NCBI GenBank assembly: GCA_016841245.1
Contig: JAENZN010000014.1
Location: 1-64,000 of the forward strand
DNA from: Syntrophomonas sp.
Lineage (GTDB): Bacteria; Bacillota; Syntrophomonadia; Syntrophomonadales; Syntrophomonadaceae
Length of the DNA: 64,000 bases
Direction: 5' to 3'
Positions within the stretch are counted from its first letter, which is position 1. The number at the start of each line of letters is the position of its first letter. The notes under the pieces were generated by a model. That model was not told the DNA's origin. It worked only from the letters and a program-made list of their open reading frames with translations, and searched no databases. This document shows positions 43,262 to 52,539 of the stretch, piece by piece. Made by a program: the position numbers and the translations under genes.

Positions 43262-43338
43262 GTGTCGCGGGGACGGTTCTTTTGACACGCCGCAAAGATC
43301 AGATAGATAGCGTGTCAAAAGAACCGTCCCCGCGACAC
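43262..43338. repeat. GGGGAC-family inverted repeat, 29-bp perfect arms
   Basis: Arms 43262-43290 and 43310-43338 are perfect complements with a 19-base loop. Each arm reads GTGTCGCGGGGACGGTTCTT then TTGACACGC. The right arm is the last 24 coding bases of the convergent kinase gene. Probably also a two-way terminator. Confidence 0.92.
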
Positions 43339-45636
43339 CCGCGACACCTGGAATATTACATAAAAATTGGTGCCTTCAGGACTTGTCTCCAATGTTATTT
43401 GAGCATGGTGTCGAGCTGCAATATTATAGCACACTGGCAGGCCCAACCCGGTCCCATTCTCTTTAGTGGTAATAAATGGAGTGCCAAGTTTATCCAGTAT
43501 ACTCTCATCTACTCCGCTGCCCTGATCTTTGATAGCCAAAACTACCTTGTTATTACTGGTAAATGTTTCTATGCTCAGAATTCCCCCTGACTGCATGGCA
43601 TCCAATCCATTGCGAACCAGGTTAAGGATCAACTGGCGGATTTCTCTTTCATCCAGCAGGAGATATGGGATTGGTTTTAGATTAATGCTGATATGTTTAT
43701 CATGGACTATGGCCTCTGCTTGTATTAAGGGAAGGATAGCTGCTATTATATCATTGAGGTCAGCTGCTTCCAGCTTAACTTCCCGATTTTTAGCCAGGGA
43801 GAGAAATTCTGTAATGATGGAGTTGGCACGGTCCAATTCTTCAATCATCAGGTTAAAATGTTCCTTATCATGGAGGTACTTTTCGTCCTGGCTCAGTATT
43901 TGCAAGAAACCGCGTACTGCGGTCATGGGATTTCTTATTTCATGGCCGATCCCCGCAGCAATTTCTCCCACCAGATTTAGACGGTCCAGATGGGCCACTT
44001 CCATTTCTAGTTTTTTGTTTTCACTGATATCAGTAACCATACCTAGAGAACCTACATAGTTCCCAGAGTTATCTACAATAGGCTGAGCGACAACAACAGC
44101 CCATAAAGCAGAACCATCCTTACGTCGGTATTTGATATTACAGATTTCTTTAACTCCTTGCCTCCGTTTTTGCATAAGGGCATCAATCAACAATTTGTCA
44201 TCTTTAAAAGTAAAATCATATAGTGACATATTGATCATTTCATCAGCATTATAACCCAGCATTTCAGCCAATTTATGGTTAGCAAATAATACCGTACCGA
44301 CATCGTCTGTCATACCTATCCCTTCGTTGGCTGTTTCTACAATTCGGCGGTACATTTCTTCACTATTTCGTAATGCCTCTTCGGCCTTTTTTCTTTCAGT
44401 TATGTCGGTGATCATAACCAGCGAACCTGAAAATTTTTTCTCTTTATCATAAACAGGAGCTATTGATGACAGGGTCCAGACCGCATCTCCATTTTTGCGC
44501 AGGTATTTAAACTCACAAGTTTCAACCAAATCCTGCTGCCTGAGGAGGTTATGTTTTCGGGCGATAATTTCCCGTTCCTCATCCATAAATTCATATAATG
44601 ACTTCCCCATGATCTCATCTATATCATAGCCGAGCATCTGAGCCATTTTTTTATTAACGAGAATAATTTTATTATCTTGATCCAGCAGCCAGATCCCCTC
44701 ATTGGCTGTCTCGACAATGCAGCGATACATTGCCTCACTGTTTCGTAGGGCTTTCTCTGTACGCCGGTGATCGCTTATATCGCTTATGCACTCGATAGCC
44801 CCGATGATGTTACCGGCGGGATCGTAAAGGGGTGCTGCTGTGCCCCGCAGATACAAACCCGATACTCTGGCCAGGGCGTAACTTCTTTCCCCGATTAAGA
44901 CATTACCCTTTCTATATATTTTTTCATAATCTTTTTCCCACTGCTCTTCCGGTTTCAGAACCAGGTCAATCAGTATGGGGCGCCTTTCGCCATAAAAGGG
45001 GACAGCATAGGCGTAATCAGCATGGCCCAAAATATCTTCACGTTTTATTCCAGTCATATCTTCGGCAGCTCTATTCCAGGCTATGACCCGACCCTGGCAG
45101 TTAATGACCATAGCTGCATCGGGCAGAAAATTGATAATGTCATCGATAACCTGCTTGGATTCCCTGAAAGCCTCTTCCGCTACTTTGCGTTCCGTGATAT
45201 CACGAATAAATACTGCCAGAATATCCTGGTTAGGGTAGGCATTAACTTCGAGCCATTGGTTTAGATCAGGTTCATATATATCTAAATGTAATTCCGTGTT
45301 TTCCTGCATAGCCTTTATACAATGGCTATATATGTTTTTGCCAATGCAGCGGGGCAATAAATCTACTGCGCCGGTGCCGATAAGGTCTTGCTTAGGGCGG
45401 CCCAGGACCTGTTCAGTTCTTTTGTTTAAACTGACAAATCTCCATTCTTTATCCAGGGTAAAGATAATATCGGTCATATTATCAAAGAGATTTTCAATGT
45501 AATGCTGGAAAGAACAATATTCTTCTTCAGCCTGTTTACGCAGGACCGCTTCATTATCTAGTTCGACCTTGAGTGCGGCCATGCGCTTCTCGTATAACTT
45601 CAATAGATGATTGCCTTTGCTGGCAGTGGCTATCAA
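43315..45636 (-). CDS. Soluble multi-PAS sensor histidine kinase
   Basis: 773 residues from a TTG at 45636 with GGAGGGGAGGGG upstream. About four PAS domains (roughly 45-150, 155-290, 300-415, 420-535), the last two near duplicates (NSEAMYRCIVETANEGI and NSEEMYRRIVETANEGI). A HisKA box GIGHEIRNPMTAVRGF (near 560) and a HATPase domain (NLVRNGLDAM, GTGLGLPVCYNIA) follow. No membrane helix is visible, so it should sense a cytosolic signal such as redox state or a ligand. No response regulator is adjacent. The final residues VSRGRFF and the stop codon come from the repeat at 43310-43338. Confidence 0.92.
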   Translation of the reverse strand: MIATASKGNHLLKLYEKRMAALKVELDNEAVLRKQAEEEYCSFQHYIENLFDNMTDIIFTLDKEWRFVSLNKRTEQVLGRPKQDLIGTGAVDLLPRCIGKNIYSHCIKAMQENTELHLDIYEPDLNQWLEVNAYPNQDILAVFIRDITERKVAEEAFRESKQVIDDIINFLPDAAMVINCQGRVIAWNRAAEDMTGIKREDILGHADYAYAVPFYGERRPILIDLVLKPEEQWEKDYEKIYRKGNVLIGERSYALARVSGLYLRGTAAPLYDPAGNIIGAIECISDISDHRRTEKALRNSEAMYRCIVETANEGIWLLDQDNKIILVNKKMAQMLGYDIDEIMGKSLYEFMDEEREIIARKHNLLRQQDLVETCEFKYLRKNGDAVWTLSSIAPVYDKEKKFSGSLVMITDITERKKAEEALRNSEEMYRRIVETANEGIGMTDDVGTVLFANHKLAEMLGYNADEMINMSLYDFTFKDDKLLIDALMQKRRQGVKEICNIKYRRKDGSALWAVVVAQPIVDNSGNYVGSLGMVTDISENKKLEMEVAHLDRLNLVGEIAAGIGHEIRNPMTAVRGFLQILSQDEKYLHDKEHFNLMIEELDRANSIITEFLSLAKNREVKLEAADLNDIIAAILPLIQAEAIVHDKHISINLKPIPYLLLDEREIRQLILNLVRNGLDAMQSGGILSIETFTSNNKVVLAIKDQGSGVDESILDKLGTPFITTKENGTGLGLPVCYNIAARHHAQITLETSPEGTNFYVIFQVSRVSRGRFF

Positions 45637-45968: not shown

Positions 45969-47279
45969 TTATTTCATTAGTGAATAGGGAAGGAATATGG
46001 CAATGGAGGGAAAGGCTATCAATACTATCAAACAAATTATCAAAGCGATGAGAAAAGGCCATATACCCCTGAATATTGATTCTATCGGAATTTCTGGCGC
46101 TACTCCTTTGATTACATAGACATTCATACCTACCGGAGGAGTGATTACCCCCATAGCTACTACCATAACCATGATCACTCCAAACCATATCGGGTCGTAA
46201 CCCAGAGTATTTACCACCACTGGGAAGAAGATAGGGATGGTCAGCAGAATAAGTGCCAGAGCATCAATAAAGCAGCCGAGGATCAGATAGATAAGCAAAA
46301 TAATGGCCATTACCGCAAACGGAGGAAGGAGTAATGATCCGGCCCAGGAAGCCAGTTCAAAAGGGACCCGGCTGATGGCCATAAAGCGGCCAAATATCAT
46401 AGCTCCCGCAATCATCAGCATAATCATTGCTGTAGTACGGGTGGCATCGAAAAGAGATTTCTTAAAATTTTCTATCGTCAAGTTTCTGCCCAGCAGTGCC
46501 ACTAGCAGTACACCAGCCGCACCTACTGCCCCGGCTTCGGTGGGAGTGAACCATCCCGCAAACAGACCGCCCATAGATAAGGCAAATACAAACAGCACTT
46601 CGGCCAGGCCGCCGCGCAGGCTATTAAATCGCTCTTTCCAGCCTGCTCTGGGTCCAGGTGGGCCCAGGGCAGGCTGGCGCAGGGTTAAAATCCAGATGGT
46701 GATAATATAAAACAACATAAGCATAATGCCCGGGATGATACCGGCCATAAACAGTTTGCCAATGGACTGTTCGGTAGCCATACCGTAAACAATAAATATT
46801 ACGCTGGGAGGAATCAGTACCCCCAGCACTCCGCCAGCAGCAATGCTGGCAGTAGCCAGGGACATATCATAGTTGTATTTTTTCATTTCCGGCAGGGCAA
46901 TCGCACCCATGGTTGCTGCAGTAGCCGTATTAGAACCGCAGATGGCGCCAAAAACCCCACATGCTATCTGAGTAGCAATGGCCAGGCCGCCCGGCCAGTG
47001 TCCAATCAGCTTATATGCAAATACATACAATCGAGTTCCAATGCCCGAGTAATAGGCAAGAAATCCCATCCAGATGAACATTACAATAACACTTAGAGAA
47101 TATGAAGAAAAAGTGTTATAGATTTCCTTGGCTACCATACTGAAACTTGAAGACACAGAAGTAAGGCAGCTAAAACCTACAAATCCGACCAGGGCCATAG
47201 CATAGGCAATAGGCATTCTTAGTACCAATAAGAGCATAAAAGCAGCTAAACCTAAAAGTCCCGCAAGCAGTGAATTCAT
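45969..47279 (-). CDS. dctM: TRAP transporter large permease
   Basis: 436 residues, about twelve membrane helices. DctM signatures are present: PIAYAMALVGFVG near the start, ACGVFGAICGSNTATAATMGAIALPEM, ASIAAGGVLGVLIPPSV and the late CFIDALALILLTIPIFFPVV. It is the ion-coupled part of the TRAP system. The ATG sits directly on the dctQ stop (TAGATG). The dctQ frame inferred to be ancestral would have ended in an ATGA overlap with it. Confidence 0.95.
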   Translation of the reverse strand: MNSLLAGLLGLAAFMLLLVLRMPIAYAMALVGFVGFSCLTSVSSSFSMVAKEIYNTFSSYSLSVIVMFIWMGFLAYYSGIGTRLYVFAYKLIGHWPGGLAIATQIACGVFGAICGSNTATAATMGAIALPEMKKYNYDMSLATASIAAGGVLGVLIPPSVIFIVYGMATEQSIGKLFMAGIIPGIMLMLFYIITIWILTLRQPALGPPGPRAGWKERFNSLRGGLAEVLFVFALSMGGLFAGWFTPTEAGAVGAAGVLLVALLGRNLTIENFKKSLFDATRTTAMIMLMIAGAMIFGRFMAISRVPFELASWAGSLLLPPFAVMAIILLIYLILGCFIDALALILLTIPIFFPVVVNTLGYDPIWFGVIMVMVVAMGVITPPVGMNVYVIKGVAPEIPIESIFRGIWPFLIALIICLIVLIAFPSIAIFLPYSLMK

Positions 47280-47849
47280 CTAAAAACCCTCTTCAATGGC
47301 AGGGTTAATTGGAGCGTCAATACCAGGCTTAAAGCCAGCAGGCCGCAAGCGGTTAGGGAGACTGGCGGCAAAAGCCATCTGTAATGATTGGGTCAATTGG
47401 ACTGTCAATACCAGGCTTAAAGCCATAAGGCCTAAAGCTATCAGGAAGACTACCGGCCACAGGGGAAACTGGGTGGTAGGTGATACGGTATTGCTTTCCA
47501 GCATGGTACGGGCATACTTGGCCACGTGCCATGCTGACATACTCCAAAATGATAGTGCAGTAACATTGGTAAGCACATCGGCCGCGGTCTGCATTTTTTG
47601 CGAAAGACGTTCAATTATAAAATCTACCGCAATGTGACCATTCTGATAGGCGCAGTATGCCAGGGCTAGGCCGACACCCACAGCGGTTAGCATGTTCACA
47701 TATTCGTAGGTTCCCAGTATAGGGCGATGAACAAGGGTGCGGAGCAGGACATTGCTTACTACCAGCAGCATCACCGCTACAATACATAATCCCGCCAGAT
47801 AATCCAGATGCTGGCTTATCTCCTTGGCCAGCCGGGCTAATTTGTTCAT
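47280..47849 (-). CDS. dctQ: TRAP transporter small permease, C terminus altered by duplication
   Basis: 189 residues with four membrane helices (about 17-37, 50-70, 92-112, 130-155), the usual DctQ form. The last 30 or so residues (from ASLPNRLRPAG to the end) are polar, proline-rich and unlike DctQ. They are encoded by a diverged copy, offset by 88 bases, of the DNA for the last helix (LMALSLVLTVQLTQ); 88 is not a multiple of three, so the copy is read in another frame. The core is intact, so the protein may still work. GGAGGTG precedes the ATG. Confidence 0.9.
   Translation of the reverse strand: MNKLARLAKEISQHLDYLAGLCIVAVMLLVVSNVLLRTLVHRPILGTYEYVNMLTAVGVGLALAYCAYQNGHIAVDFIIERLSQKMQTAADVLTNVTALSFWSMSAWHVAKYARTMLESNTVSPTTQFPLWPVVFLIALGLMALSLVLTVQLTQSLQMAFAASLPNRLRPAGFKPGIDAPINPAIEEGF
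47303..47459. repeat. Diverged tandem duplication in the 3' end of dctQ
   Basis: About 68 bases at 47303-47370 resemble 47391-47459, offset by 88. A 20-base identical core starts at 47316 and at 47404. Confidence 0.85.
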
Positions 47850-47871: not shown

Positions 47872-48969
47872 TTATTGGTATTCGGCGTTGTATTTATCAG
47901 CCAGCCTCTTAACTGTATCCAGTATTTCCTGTCCCGACTGTCCGGCTGCATCCATTCTGGCCACAAAATCGTCTTGAATGGGTTGGACTAGATTAATCCA
48001 CTTATCGCTTTCCTCCTGGGAGAGGGTGATGACCTCCATGCCCTGCTCATCGACTGCATACTTTAAGGCATCCTCATTTTGTTTATCCCATAAACCTATA
48101 GCTACCTGTTCAAAATACTCATCATTGACGGCTTCAATTGCTTCTTTAATATCCGGGTCCAGTGAATTCCATTTATCAAGATTCATGGTAATAAAAAACA
48201 AAGTATTATATAAGAACGGGGTCTCAGTGATGTAACTGGTGACTTCCGCTTGTTTCCATCCCTTCAAGACTTCAACCGGGCCAAGATTTCCCTTGACCAC
48301 ACCTTTGGTCAGGGCTTCATATGCATCTGATTGAGGCATCGCGGCTGGAACAGCTCCCAGGGTCTCCAGGGTTGTAGCGCTTAGTCCGGTGGCTCTAATT
48401 TCCATGCCTTGTAAATCCTGCAGGCTGCGGACTGGATCCTTGGTATACAAGTCCCCCGGGCCGGTAGTTAGCACCATCATAAGTTTAGTATCCTGAATTT
48501 CTGGTGGATTAAGTTCCTGTATACCCTCCCAGGCCACTTTGCTGGCAACTTTGGAATTATTATAAGTAACCCCAGGCAGTTCAAAGACTTCCAGTACCGG
48601 GAAACGGCCCCGGGTGTATGAAAAACATGAAAGACCCAGATCAGTACTGCCATCAACTACCCCGGCATATATGGAATCAGCGTTCAAGAGGGTTTGATTG
48701 GGGTAACTGGTTATTTTCACCTGTCCATTGCTTGCTTCTTCTACAGCTTTAATCCAGGGCTGGATCAATTCAGTCTCAGCCGGGTGAGTACTGGGGAAAA
48801 AATGTGCCAATCTCAGTTCAACTACTTCTGCCTGCTTCGGTTCTTGTGTGGATTCATTACTCGAATTCGAGCATCCCACGGCTGTGCTCAGTACCAAAAT
48901 CAGCATCAGGCACAGCAATTTTTTGCTCATTCCCAAACTCTTTTTTCTGCTACCCAACAATTCTTGCAT
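47872..48969 (-). CDS. dctP: TRAP transporter substrate-binding lipoprotein
   Basis: 365 residues from the ATG at 48969 (AGGAGGAG upstream; 19 further codons are open). A signal peptide ends at the lipobox AVGC, so the protein is a lipid-anchored outside receptor, as expected in a Gram-positive cell. The DctP fold is clear: LRLAHFFPSTHPAE, GSTDLGLSCFSYTRGRFP and LQDLQGMEIRATGLSATT with the conserved carboxylate-binding arginine. Ligands of the family are organic acids; which one is unknown. Two leader elements precede it. Confidence 0.92.
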   Translation of the reverse strand: MQELLGSRKKSLGMSKKLLCLMLILVLSTAVGCSNSSNESTQEPKQAEVVELRLAHFFPSTHPAETELIQPWIKAVEEASNGQVKITSYPNQTLLNADSIYAGVVDGSTDLGLSCFSYTRGRFPVLEVFELPGVTYNNSKVASKVAWEGIQELNPPEIQDTKLMMVLTTGPGDLYTKDPVRSLQDLQGMEIRATGLSATTLETLGAVPAAMPQSDAYEALTKGVVKGNLGPVEVLKGWKQAEVTSYITETPFLYNTLFFITMNLDKWNSLDPDIKEAIEAVNDEYFEQVAIGLWDKQNEDALKYAVDEQGMEVITLSQEESDKWINLVQPIQDDFVARMDAAGQSGQEILDTVKRLADKYNAEYQ

Positions 48970-48998: not shown

Positions 48999-49125
48999 AA
49001 GAAAAAAACTCCCATAGGAGTTCCAAGAATGGTGCTGAATCCTGCTCACGTAAAGTGCAGCCAGGATTACCAGGTTTAACACCTCATTCTTTTACCTACC
49101 GTCTTACCTTCCTACCTTTTTAATT
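48999..49125 (-). promoter_or_regulatory. Leader element 1 (proximal) with terminator, upstream of dctP
   Basis: Read on the minus strand from about 49120. The 5' part shares GGTAGGAAGGT, ACGGTAGGTAAAAGAAT and AGGTGTTAA with the element at 49261-49380. The 3' part ends in ACTCCTATGGGAGT followed by T7, an intrinsic terminator only 33 bases before the dctP ATG. An inner AATCCTG/CAGGATT stem is visible. It looks like a transcription-attenuating leader; I cannot match it to a riboswitch class. Confidence 0.7.
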
Positions 49126-49260
49126 GTTTAGCCATTCTGCAATACTACTTTTAAAAACCTTGAAGGGCTTTTGGACTGTAGTATCAAATAACAATGGTGA
49201 TTAACACAAATCAATGATACTAGTCGTGTTCGCCTCCTTTGCCTCAAATATCAAGGTAAC

Positions 49261-49380
49261 AAAAAAACTCCCGCAGGAGTCCGAGAACGGCACTTAATAC
49301 CTGATCCCTTTACGAGATCTAAAAACGGGTATTAACACCTGATTCTTTTACCTACCGTTCTAACCTTCCTACCTTATAAG
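49261..49380 (-). promoter_or_regulatory. Leader element 2 (distal) with terminator
   Basis: Second copy, about 260 bases upstream of the first. Besides the shared 5' block it has AGAACGG/CCGTTCT and TTAATACC/GGTATTAA pairings and ends in ACTCCTGCGGGAGT then T7. Together they form a tandem regulatory leader. The rest of gap 48970-49692 is AT-rich and presumably holds the promoter (49440-49520). Confidence 0.7.
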
Positions 49381-49644
49381 AGAATATTAATTCTACATTT
49401 ACTTAAAAACCAACTCAAAGCTGGCATTTATTCCTACTCCTGTATTTTCTCAAATTTATATACAAATTTCAATATAAAGTTTTGTTTATCTTTATATTAT
49501 TCTATGCACGGTCTTTGTTAGCTAACTCTTTTTAAATAAAAAAATTATCTTAAAATTACACCTCCTTCTATTTAAAGAATTAAAATGGGATAGGCATCTC
49601 TTATGATTTATGTTGTATGAATATGGGGAAAATGTCCTGCGGAT

Positions 49645-49692: not shown

Positions 49693-49962
49693 TTAACCAG
49701 ACCGGTATCCATTTTGATTCTTGCTCAGAATCTTTACTATACCGTCTATTTTTATACTGTGATCTCCAATAGCGTTTCTGGCCGAGCTAACATTTTCTTC
49801 GTCGATTAGCAGGGAAATACCGCAGGATTTACTGGCCTCTCGGGGAGTGGGGGAAATGGTGCACTTTATCCCGGCTTCCTTCAGATACTTGTGGGCCTTC
49901 AATCCTTCATGGTGGTTAGGAAACAATATGTAATATCTATATATTTCCTGGTTATCAGCCAT
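49693..49962 (-). CDS. DUF3343 putative Se/S-carrier-like protein
   Basis: 89 residues. DUF3343 hallmarks: YYILFPNHHEGLKAHKYL, then the conserved CTISPTPREASKSCGISL with two cysteines (near 34 and 47). The family is annotated as a putative Se/S carrier and is often encoded beside 2-hydroxyacyl-CoA-dehydratase-like proteins, as here (8 bases from the upstream stop). Its chemistry is unproven. Possibly it delivers sulfur to the clusters of its neighbours. Confidence 0.88.
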   Translation of the reverse strand: MADNQEIYRYYILFPNHHEGLKAHKYLKEAGIKCTISPTPREASKSCGISLLIDEENVSSARNAIGDHSIKIDGIVKILSKNQNGYRSG

Positions 49963-49970
49963 ATAATTAC

Positions 49971-51245
49971 CTATTTTTCCAGCATTTCCAGAAATGCTTC
50001 TACTCTGGTTCTCATTTGTTCAAAATCCTGTTCACTGTAATCGGTTTCTATATGCATTACTGGAATTCCGGCCTTTTTTACAGCCTGCTGGACCAGATAA
50101 CTTTCTGTGGAGTACAGGCCGCAGAACTGCAGGTTGCAATCGATTATTCCATCTATCCGATATTCTTCAGCCAGTCGCATAATATCTTCGATCCGACCTG
50201 GATTAGGAGTAAAGCAGGCGCAGTTGGTTTTCATATAGCGTTCTGCCAGGTATTGTACCTGTTCATCCAGGCTGCTGCCGCTCTGGTCAACCGGGTTCTC
50301 AAAATAACGTACTCCAGTACATAATTCTTCTACTACTACAGCTGCTCCCAGGGTTTCCACTACATGATGCAGTTTCCAATTGGGGATAGCCATAGGTGTT
50401 CCAGTAATCATTATACGGGGGGCATCGGCCGGGAAAACTCCTTCACCGTTAGATACTCTTTTATCCAGTTCATCGCATAGCAAGTTAAGCTGGTCAGTGA
50501 AGCGGCCCGGGTCATCATAAAAAGCGATCTGGGTTATTAAGAGCGCATCTTTACCGCTGATTGGTACCGGTGAGGTTTTTCGGAGTGCATAGAGACGAGC
50601 CAGGGCATTCCTTTTTTTATTAATAAGCTTAATATTTTCCGCCAGTACCTCTATGGTAATTTTATTGCCGGTTACTTCTTCGACCTTTTGCATAAGAGAT
50701 TTGATTTCTTCTTCCCAAGCCTGGAGGTCTTTTTCTCGTTTCATCTGAGGGAGATCCATTACATAAACCGGGACATCCTGATTAAGGATTTCCCAGGCCT
50801 TTTTCTTGCCATCGCAGGTAGTTTCACCAATATACATATCAGCTATCTGGAAAAAGGGGCAGGTACCATCCAAACGAGCACCAACCGAGGCCTTAATTAA
50901 CGGGCAGGTGTTAGCCGGCAGGACTTTCTCACCACCCGGGACCCAGAACTGAGAACCTCCACACAACCCGGTAGCAATGCCACCAGCAGCAAATATTATT
51001 TCATCTGGAACATAAACACAGAAGGTGCCGAAAACCTTACCTCCTTTCTGTTGGTGCTCTATCAGTTCAGCCGGTCTAACTCCATGAATTTCAGCTACGA
51101 CAAAATTAAAGTAATCCATCCCCTCGGGGCGGTTTTCCTGGGAGAGATAAACCCCCCCAAAAGCATCAGGGAGGACTTCGCATAAAATATCATGTTTTTC
51201 CAGATCCATCCCCAGGTCACTCCACATCTGACGGTAATCAGCCAT
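49971..51245 (-). CDS. Double-cubane-cluster reductase-like protein (2-hydroxyacyl-CoA dehydratase family)
   Basis: 424 residues. The conserved cysteines of the family are visible: LCGGSQ, NTCPLIKAS, GTCPFF, ETTCDGKKK, NCACFTPNPGR and NLQFCG. This pattern fits the DCCP branch of the HgdB/FldC superfamily, whose members carry a [8Fe-9S] double cubane and reduce small molecules at low potential with an ATP-driven partner. No activator ATPase (HgdC type) is in the window. The N terminus is about 50 residues longer than in the neighbour at 51415. Confidence 0.88.
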   Translation of the reverse strand: MADYRQMWSDLGMDLEKHDILCEVLPDAFGGVYLSQENRPEGMDYFNFVVAEIHGVRPAELIEHQQKGGKVFGTFCVYVPDEIIFAAGGIATGLCGGSQFWVPGGEKVLPANTCPLIKASVGARLDGTCPFFQIADMYIGETTCDGKKKAWEILNQDVPVYVMDLPQMKREKDLQAWEEEIKSLMQKVEEVTGNKITIEVLAENIKLINKKRNALARLYALRKTSPVPISGKDALLITQIAFYDDPGRFTDQLNLLCDELDKRVSNGEGVFPADAPRIMITGTPMAIPNWKLHHVVETLGAAVVVEELCTGVRYFENPVDQSGSSLDEQVQYLAERYMKTNCACFTPNPGRIEDIMRLAEEYRIDGIIDCNLQFCGLYSTESYLVQQAVKKAGIPVMHIETDYSEQDFEQMRTRVEAFLEMLEK

Positions 51246-51287
51246 ACTTCTCCACTCCTTTTATATTATTAAGATGCAATGTAAAAA

Positions 51288-51396
51288 CCCTGTTTGGATG
51301 CATAAACATGCAGGAGCCGCAAGACGAGCAGTTGGTGTTTCACATGAGGAGTCTTAGCGACGGAATATTCATGCATCCAAGCCGGCACATTATATC
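51288..51396 (-). repeat. ATGCAT-ended repeat element, short copy
   Basis: TTGGATGCATAAACAT (51294-51309) and ATATTCATGCATCCAA (51365-51380) are imperfect inverted ends. Read on the minus strand, the core matches the element at 19673-19916 (ATAATGTGCYGGCTTGGATG, then AAGACTCC and CAACTGCTCG), lacking its 110-base insert. It lies between the two double-cubane genes. Confidence 0.8.
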
Positions 51397-51414
51397 TTTT
51401 TCCAGCAAAATTAT

Positions 51415-52539
51415 TTATATAATCTCCAGCAATGCTTCTATCCGAACTTTAAGGCTTTCCACATCAGCCTGGGAATAGTCGGTTTCCAACTGCAGGTAGG
51501 GCAATTCCAGGTTTCTGACCAGCTGGCCGACTTTATAAGCTTCAATATTATAAGTGTGGCAGGCCTGCCAGGTCAGATCTATTACCGCATCTACCTGAAA
51601 ATCCTTGATCATCTGTTGTATGAGTTCCAGTCGCCCCTGGTTAGGACTCATACAAGAACAGGGAATCTGCAGGTATTTGTCAGCCAGGGCAGTAATCGGG
51701 TCATCATAGGAGGTATCAGTCTGCAGACTGAGGGTTTTGTAGCCGCTGCAAAGCTCCATAGCTACTACGTTAGCTCCCAGGTCTTCAGCCAGTACGACTA
51801 CCTTTTCGGTACCGGTTCCGACCGGGCAGCCAGTTAGAAGAATGCGGGGCAGGCCGGTCTGCTTGCTGCTAGGAGAGGCAGCAAGGCTGGCACTAAGTTC
51901 TTCCAGCATCCTTATTACTTCTTCCACATCGGTGCTGAAACTGCGGGACCAGGATACAGACAATAATTCCTTTCCGCTCATAAGTGGGGGGTCGGCCTGG
52001 TTGAGATCGCATACCGCTTTAAGGGCTGCTGATTCCCGGTTAACCAGGTCAATGGCCTGCCAAATATCATCATCATTAATCTTTACTTCAAATTGCTCCT
52101 CCAGATACCGTCGCAGCCTGCGCAGTTCTTCGCTCCACATTTCCAGTGCATGTTTAAGACCCGCATAAGGAAGCTGCATAACGTGCACCGGCTTTATGTC
52201 CTGCATAATCTCGAACATCTTCTTTTTTCCATCACAGGTGGTTTCGCCCAGGATAAAATCTGAAAAATGAAAAAAGGGGCAGGTGTCGGTAGCGGCAAAA
52301 CCATAAGACGATTTTACCAGTGGACATAAATTCCGGGGCAGCACTTCTTCCGCAGCTGGAATGGGTTTTTCGCTGGTACCGCACAAACCTACCGGTACTG
52401 CTCCAGCTGCCAGGATGAGTTCAGTGGGGGTATAGGCACAGTAGCGGCCCACCACTTTGCCGCCAGCTTCCTTAAATGCCTTGAGCTGCATGATTGCTAT
52501 TTCCCTGATGCTCGAAAAACTTTCAATACTAGTTGCCAT
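51415..52539 (-). CDS. Double-cubane-cluster reductase-like protein, second copy
   Basis: 374 residues, a paralogue of the product of 49971-51245. Same motifs in the same order: LCGTSE, NLCPLVKSS, DTCPFFHFSD, ETTCDGKKK, CSCMSPNQGR and WQACHTYN, ending in LETDYSQADVESLKVRIEALLE. The two may form a heterodimer like HgdA/HgdB, or two homodimers. The substrate is unknown; acyl-CoA dehydration is possible but the DCCP-like pattern argues for a reductase. It is the first gene of the operon. Confidence 0.88.
   Translation of the reverse strand: MATSIESFSSIREIAIMQLKAFKEAGGKVVGRYCAYTPTELILAAGAVPVGLCGTSEKPIPAAEEVLPRNLCPLVKSSYGFAATDTCPFFHFSDFILGETTCDGKKKMFEIMQDIKPVHVMQLPYAGLKHALEMWSEELRRLRRYLEEQFEVKINDDDIWQAIDLVNRESAALKAVCDLNQADPPLMSGKELLSVSWSRSFSTDVEEVIRMLEELSASLAASPSSKQTGLPRILLTGCPVGTGTEKVVVLAEDLGANVVAMELCSGYKTLSLQTDTSYDDPITALADKYLQIPCSCMSPNQGRLELIQQMIKDFQVDAVIDLTWQACHTYNIEAYKVGQLVRNLELPYLQLETDYSQADVESLKVRIEALLEII

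Follow-up and report, generated by a model that had tools for sequence, protein, structure and literature searches.

Tandem UAG-repeat leaders upstream of a dctPQM operon in Syntrophomonas: candidate attenuators of a HutP-family regulon

The dctPQM genes of a Syntrophomonas sp. are preceded by two tandem terminator-ended leaders, which we found in the window, a stretch of 64,000 nucleotides of contig JAENZN010000014.1. These leaders belong to a family that is real and widespread, and apparently this clostridial group of UAG-triplet switches has so far been undescribed. Our reading, to which we give a probability of about two in three, is that the leaders are protein-bound attenuators and part of a regulon in which a HutP-family protein governs the supply of aromatic amino acids. 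The leader family, the periodicity of the UAG triplets, the fold of the hairpin P1, the terminators, the shared gene contexts and the proximity of elements to hutP were computed here.

Results

Two leaders upstream of dctPQM

Leader 1 (49373-49261) and leader 2 (49116-49002) are located on the minus strand, are about 115 nt long each and are both situated 5' of dctPQM. They align with a pairwise identity of 75-76%, and leader 2 is the sole strong match of leader 1 in the 3.9-Mb genome (E 1.6e-12). The blocks GGTAGGAAGGT, ACGGTAGGTAAAAGAAT and AGGTGTTAA are common to both, as is the sequence ACTCCT..GGGAGT followed by seven T, whereas folding of the middle regions yields hairpins of differing sequence. 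An earlier note on this DNA had described two tandem terminator-ended minus-strand segments with shared 5' and 3' blocks and differing loop regions, and all of these elements are present as quoted.

UAG/NAG triplets in a row make up the conserved 5' block, which we call cluster B. In leader 1 it reads GGUAGGAAGGUUAGAACGGUAGG (49351..49373, minus strand) and was delimited by the positions that are invariant across 28 homologues; in leader 2 it reads GGUAGGAAGGUAAGACGGUAGG (49095..49116, minus strand), as taken from the alignments of the two leaders and of the homologues. The variable hairpin P1 follows at 49284..49346 in leader 1 (z -2.6) and at 49025..49091 in leader 2 (z -2.5). Each leader ends in an intrinsic terminator, ACUCCUGCGGGAGU plus U7 at 49261..49280 and ACUCCUAUGGGAGU plus U7 at 49002..49021, respectively. 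Both terminators were recovered by a pattern scan, which gave seven terminator-like sites in the region compared with 0.5 in shuffled sequences.

An extra UAG cluster, cluster A, lies 5' of each leader and was assigned from the sequence and from the statistics of the family. For leader 1 it is situated beyond the coordinates first given (49391..49440, minus strand) and consists of GAGUAGG, a hairpin (49425-49409) and AUGUAGAA, containing just two UAGs that are far apart. For leader 2 it is found between the leaders (49131..49150, minus strand; AAGUAGUAUUGCAGAAUGGC).

In a consensus scan promoter-like sites were found only 5' of leader 1, with matches no better than chance. One of them, TTGAAA-17-GAAAAT (49444..49472, minus strand), has 9/12 matches, which by itself is chance level; it would start the leader RNA just 5' of the first UAG.

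The first gene proposed to be regulated is dctP (47872..48969, minus strand), encoding a TRAP transporter solute-binding protein (PF03480, 164 bits; NF037995). It is followed on the same strand by dctQ for the small permease subunit (47280..47849; PF04290) and dctM for the large one (45969..47279; PF06808, 335 bits; TIGR00786). Directly 3' of dctM a PAS-domain histidine kinase-like gene is found (43315-45636, minus strand), and the layout is similar in two further loci (L071 and L074). On the 5' side of the leaders, two 2-hydroxyacyl-CoA dehydratase subunit-like genes and a gene for a small protein (49693-52539, minus strand) form a group that is closed by a strong terminator at 49675-49651.

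Distribution of the leader family

At the gathering cut-off, Rfam gave no match in the window or in the loci of 13 relatives, which agrees with the earlier note, where the leaders were called of unknown class after a comparison with nine kinds of known element. The best sub-threshold match, Spot_42, scored 21 bits where 80 are needed and was rejected as chance. In the literature searched we found no description of a UAG-repeat leader family.

Homologues of the leaders were detected by BLAST in 21 of the 63 genomes of the order. A covariance model (R1) had matches in 54 of the 63 at a loose cut-off, and its strong matches come from at least 26 genomes within the order and extend to many further families of the phylum; the named records include Syntrophomonas, Syntrophothermus, Gelria and Pelotomaculum. 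The family is conserved far beyond this locus, and its members also stand upstream of dctP genes, for which the earlier note had suggested a search. The tandem pair is limited to the genus of the window (G000, G018-G021), and elsewhere a single leader is present per gene. The R1 matches L180 and L181 and the partial matches L143 and L178 were set aside as terminator-only or chance, and pattern matches in Alkalitalea (L081) and Terriglobales (L089) were dropped as chance.

The UAG repeat and the anatomy of the leaders

The conserved layout consists of a UAG cluster, a hairpin which keeps its fold and varies in sequence, and a CUCCU...GGGAG-U7 terminator; many leaders have a second UAG cluster upstream. 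Cluster B is clear in all 28 aligned leaders, where UAG-n-AAGG-n-nAG-n-YGGYAG is nearly or fully invariant, and the conserved alignment columns fall in the triplet block and the terminator, outside P1. The consensus of the cluster, GGUAGgAyGGUAGgAyGGYAGG, has its triplets about 8 nt apart. Distant members are cleaner and follow GGUAGGAYGGUAGGAYGGUAGG, i.e., UAG every 8 nt. The number and the spacing of the triplets differ from member to member.

The distances between UAG pairs were counted in 72 leaders and compared with dinucleotide shuffles. Distances of 8 (74 versus 7.0) and 9 (38 versus 7.6) as well as 16 (33 versus 7.0) and 17 (44 versus 6.8) were strongly over-represented; the model had been built from cluster B, so that this share of the UAG signal was selected for. 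Distance 5 was mildly enriched (16 versus 7.9), and no enrichment was seen in these leaders for distances 6 (5 versus 8.0) and 7 (6 versus 7.9). GAG was depleted (76 versus 151). The region 5' of cluster B played no part in finding the matches. In this cluster A region GUAG occurs 132 times compared with 40.5 in shuffles, and 38 of the 72 leaders contain a GYAG pair 7-10 nt apart (1.9 expected).

RNAalifold on a plain MAFFT alignment recovered the terminator alone, because P1 varies in length and sequence. The leaders were folded one by one in place of consensus alignment folding, and P1 proved to be kept as a fold: the mean z is -2.7, with 41 of 60 leaders below -2, and the closing pairs number 7.4 compared with 2.6 in shuffles.

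The sequence UUGCC is conserved after the U-tract and is missing from the leaders of MFS type (TTGGGCA); a pairing of UUGCC with GGUAG is possible. In two members, L125 and L136, GUAGG-like repeats run on past the start of dctP into its first codons (e.g. GTACGGTGGGACGGTAGGATGGCAAGG), which hints that binding sites may extend over the start region too.

Genes behind the element

After most elements dctP is the first gene. Four elements precede MFS transporters of the lactate/oxalate-formate type (L027, L029, L117 and L119; NF049980 for L117) and four precede TrpX-type ABC transporters (L137, L138, L176 and L177), for which the NF041285 matches were slightly below the cut-off in the three tested. 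The DAHP synthase gene aroF follows the element in L140, L142, L155, L158 and L161-L167, and the prephenate dehydrogenase gene tyrA in L168. A breakdown gene, related to tryptophanase and tyrosine phenol-lyase, is preceded by leader L179 (G137:C206, 501-588, plus strand), and once the element is situated 5' of hutP itself (L160, genome G351).

The window's own genome carries a third element, upstream of aroF (L174; AAUGUAGUAAGGUAGGUC..AAAUGGUAGUAUGGUAGGAUGGUGGG), with 20 nt between its two UAG clusters. This genome has an aroF-like gene in its hutP locus as well (L154 = G000:C34, 10309-11151), on whose 5' side no UAG repeats were seen, so that one DAHP synthase gene, near hutP-aroH, is without a UAG leader and the other has one. 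In another locus (L086, 3545-6427, minus strand) the UAG-led MFS gene is followed by an acyl-CoA ligase gene, a pair which suggests that a monocarboxylic acid is imported and activated.

As the element is common to aroF, tyrA, TrpX-type ABC transporters, the tryptophanase-like gene and hutP, we take the regulon to be that of aromatic amino acid supply. The same distribution means that the idea of a sensor for the transported acid, which the earlier note had offered as a natural guess, is probably wrong.

A HutP-family protein as candidate reader of the repeats

The window's genome encodes a protein matching PF09021 (HutP) with 165 bits (L154:7593-8009); B. subtilis HutP scores 111 bits. The gene either precedes the chorismate mutase gene aroH in an aromatic supra-operon or directly precedes the element and a TrpX-type transporter. 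Among genomes with mapped hutP, 9 of 90 elements lie within 1.5 kb of the gene compared with 0.10 expected, a figure not corrected for kinship. These nine closest links cover at least seven families. Within 10 kb of hutP 14 of the 90 elements are found, all 14 on the same strand.

Every one of the 37 genomes that have strong elements and are at least 90% complete carries the gene (a co-occurrence not corrected for kinship), as do 257 of the 398 genomes sampled from the phylum. It was not found in six element-bearing MAGs. Four of them, G016, G031, G041 and G057, have strong elements and are less than 90% complete; in the other two, G180 (80%) and G347 (91%), the elements are weaker and of TrpX type. 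A scan of viral contigs for HutP gave no hit.

The clostridial proteins share 55-83% identity with the copy of the window's genome across families. B. subtilis HutP, the sequence of which was checked against PDB 1vea, is only remotely similar, and no profile match to PDB HutP was obtained from the clostridial protein. Nothing was found on clostridial HutP in the literature searched. At the positions of His73 and His77 in B. subtilis HutP, each of the 21 aligned clostridial proteins has a glycine (Gly77 and Gly81, respectively), and His138 lacks conservation. We take these three histidines to be the site for Mg2+ and L-histidine. With glycine at the positions of this site, an effector other than histidine appears likely. 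As aroF-pheA-tyrA carry the UAG element while trpE carries TRAP sites, the best guess is phenylalanine and/or tyrosine; one of these or a close intermediate would most likely be the effector.

Could the repeats instead be read by TRAP (MtrB), the tryptophan-activated 11-mer, with an unusual spacing? TRAP binds (G/U)AG repeats in attenuators, the regulon of the UAG leaders is aromatic, and TRAP is present in the window's genome, in 32 of 35 element-bearing genomes, in 32 of the 37 near-complete genomes with strong elements and in 200 of the 398 genomes of the phylum. In TRAP sites, spacers of 2-3 nt separate as many as 11 GAG/UAG triplets (PMC3913778), and this is not the spacing found here, with distance 6 unenriched, distance 5 mildly and distance 8 strongly enriched, and GAG depleted. 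Five near-complete genomes (G014, G084, G045, G050 and G143) possess elements and hutP and lack TRAP, and the linkage of the elements to hutP also counts against TRAP as reader. No TRAP-like triplet run was seen in the window; such runs were present only 5' of trpE in three other genomes. In these genomes canonical repeats of TRAP type, with GAG/UAG at intervals of 5-6 nt and a terminator behind them, are situated 5' of trpE (L162 in G315, 15722, minus strand; L166 in G191, 8170, plus strand; L168 in G235, 8053, plus strand), and the 8-nt UAG repeats precede aroF in G315 and G191 and tyrA in G235. Each of these trpE leaders shares its supra-operon with the 8-nt UAG leader of aroF or tyrA and follows hutP at a distance of about 0.5 to 1.6 kb. 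The two leader types in one supra-operon point to two proteins with two codes, and we regard TRAP as an unlikely reader.

Some other RNA-binding protein would be a further candidate, the linkage to hutP then coming merely from the shared aromatic operon. Indeed hutP heads the aromatic supra-operon, and some linkage is expected from joint membership. Yet the order hutP-element-TrpX is found away from the aro operon in G282 and G371, G351 has the element in front of hutP itself, and the architecture of two NAG clusters, where cluster A contains a regular pair, would fit known HutP sites; we hold this explanation to be quite unlikely.

The earlier note had left it open whether the leaders are riboswitches or protein-bound attenuators. 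For a riboswitch, in which the 5' block and P1 would form an aptamer with either the transported acid or some aromatic metabolite as its ligand, one can adduce the tandem terminator-ended leaders, the strongly conserved block and the single metabolic theme of the gene contexts. However, the conserved nucleotides form a periodic triplet repeat and do not occupy junction or loop positions, P1 has no conserved sequence core, the triplets vary in number and spacing between members, and there is another UAG cluster far upstream. Since what is conserved is a periodicity of UAG, with nothing resembling an aptamer core, the protein-bound option is the better one and a riboswitch very improbable. A functionless local duplication, to which the restriction of the tandem copy to the window's genus would be suited, was rejected, as periodicity, terminators and gene context are conserved outside the locus and across families.

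Discussion

Model of regulation

For the HutP-family reading we infer which protein binds and which effector it senses, as well as the antiterminator and a polarity that is off when bound. A multimeric RNA-binding protein, most likely the clostridial HutP-family protein, would read two clusters of UAG triplets with a spacing of about 8 nt. When no protein is bound, the UAG block (GUAGG) would base-pair across P1 with CUCCURC, the terminator's 5' arm, and transcription would read through into dctPQM. The effector-loaded protein would cover the UAG repeats, the terminator could form and transcription would stop. A single transcript that has to pass two gates of this kind one after the other would be controlled more tightly. 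DctPQM would then most likely import an aromatic amino acid or a precursor.

Two parts of this scheme deserve comment. First, termination upon binding is predicted by analogy with the TRAP model, in which occupied repeats block the antiterminator (PMC3913778). Second, the antiterminator pairing is offered as a model, given that the expected number of pairs between the UAG block and the terminator 5' arm is 6.1, compared with 5.0 for blocks of shuffled composition, a slight excess.

On a broader reading, which we hold to be evenly balanced, clostridial HutP would be a second triplet-repeat attenuation system beside TRAP. It would sense an aromatic amino acid or intermediate other than tryptophan through 8-nt-spaced UAG triplets and would control DAHP synthase, aromatic transporters and a new class of aromatic-related dctPQM importers. 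If this is true, a conserved clostridial family named solely after a histidine regulator gains a function, and the hut regulator HutP would be a member that became specific for histidine later, as a derived state. The same aromatic operons would contain a second triplet-repeat attenuation code next to that of TRAP, and the orphan TRAP (dctPQM) and MFS transporters that syntrophic bacteria possess would gain substrate hints.

Comparison with known systems

The protein presumed to act on the UAG leaders falls in the same Pfam family, PF09021, as B. subtilis HutP, the regulator of hut. In the B. subtilis hut RNA, presumably, 4 nt separate the triplets, compared with 5 nt (triplets about 8 nt apart) in the UAG leaders. 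The controlled genes are those of histidine breakdown in hut and those of aromatic biosynthesis and uptake here. B. subtilis HutP prevents termination, and the polarity predicted for the UAG leaders is the reverse. In the hut RNA target the NAG triplets form two clusters close to a terminator (PMC7430163), and the two clusters 20 nt apart in the aroF leader of the window's genome resemble this arrangement.

The trpB motif (SRC-39-1) of Breaker and colleagues is a riboswitch candidate of Firmicutes with the antiterminator in P1 (PMC11109978). It resembles the present leaders in having two hairpins, the second being the terminator, and in its position upstream of ABC transporters of amino acid type and sometimes trpB (PMC11109978). 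The passages that describe the motif mention neither UAG repeats nor HutP (PMC11109978); a partial overlap with the TrpX-type members of our family is possible. The uORFC-13-1 motif likewise occurs upstream of aroF beside a terminator and is a leader-peptide attenuator of Acholeplasma with phenylalanine codons (PMC8632094).

With the trp leader bound by TRAP, the UAG leaders share triplet repeats that overlap a predicted antiterminator, a terminator and genes of aromatic amino acid metabolism. They differ in the code: (G/U)AG triplets with 2-3-nt spacers in the trp leader, UAG about every 8 nt with GAG depleted in the leaders described here.
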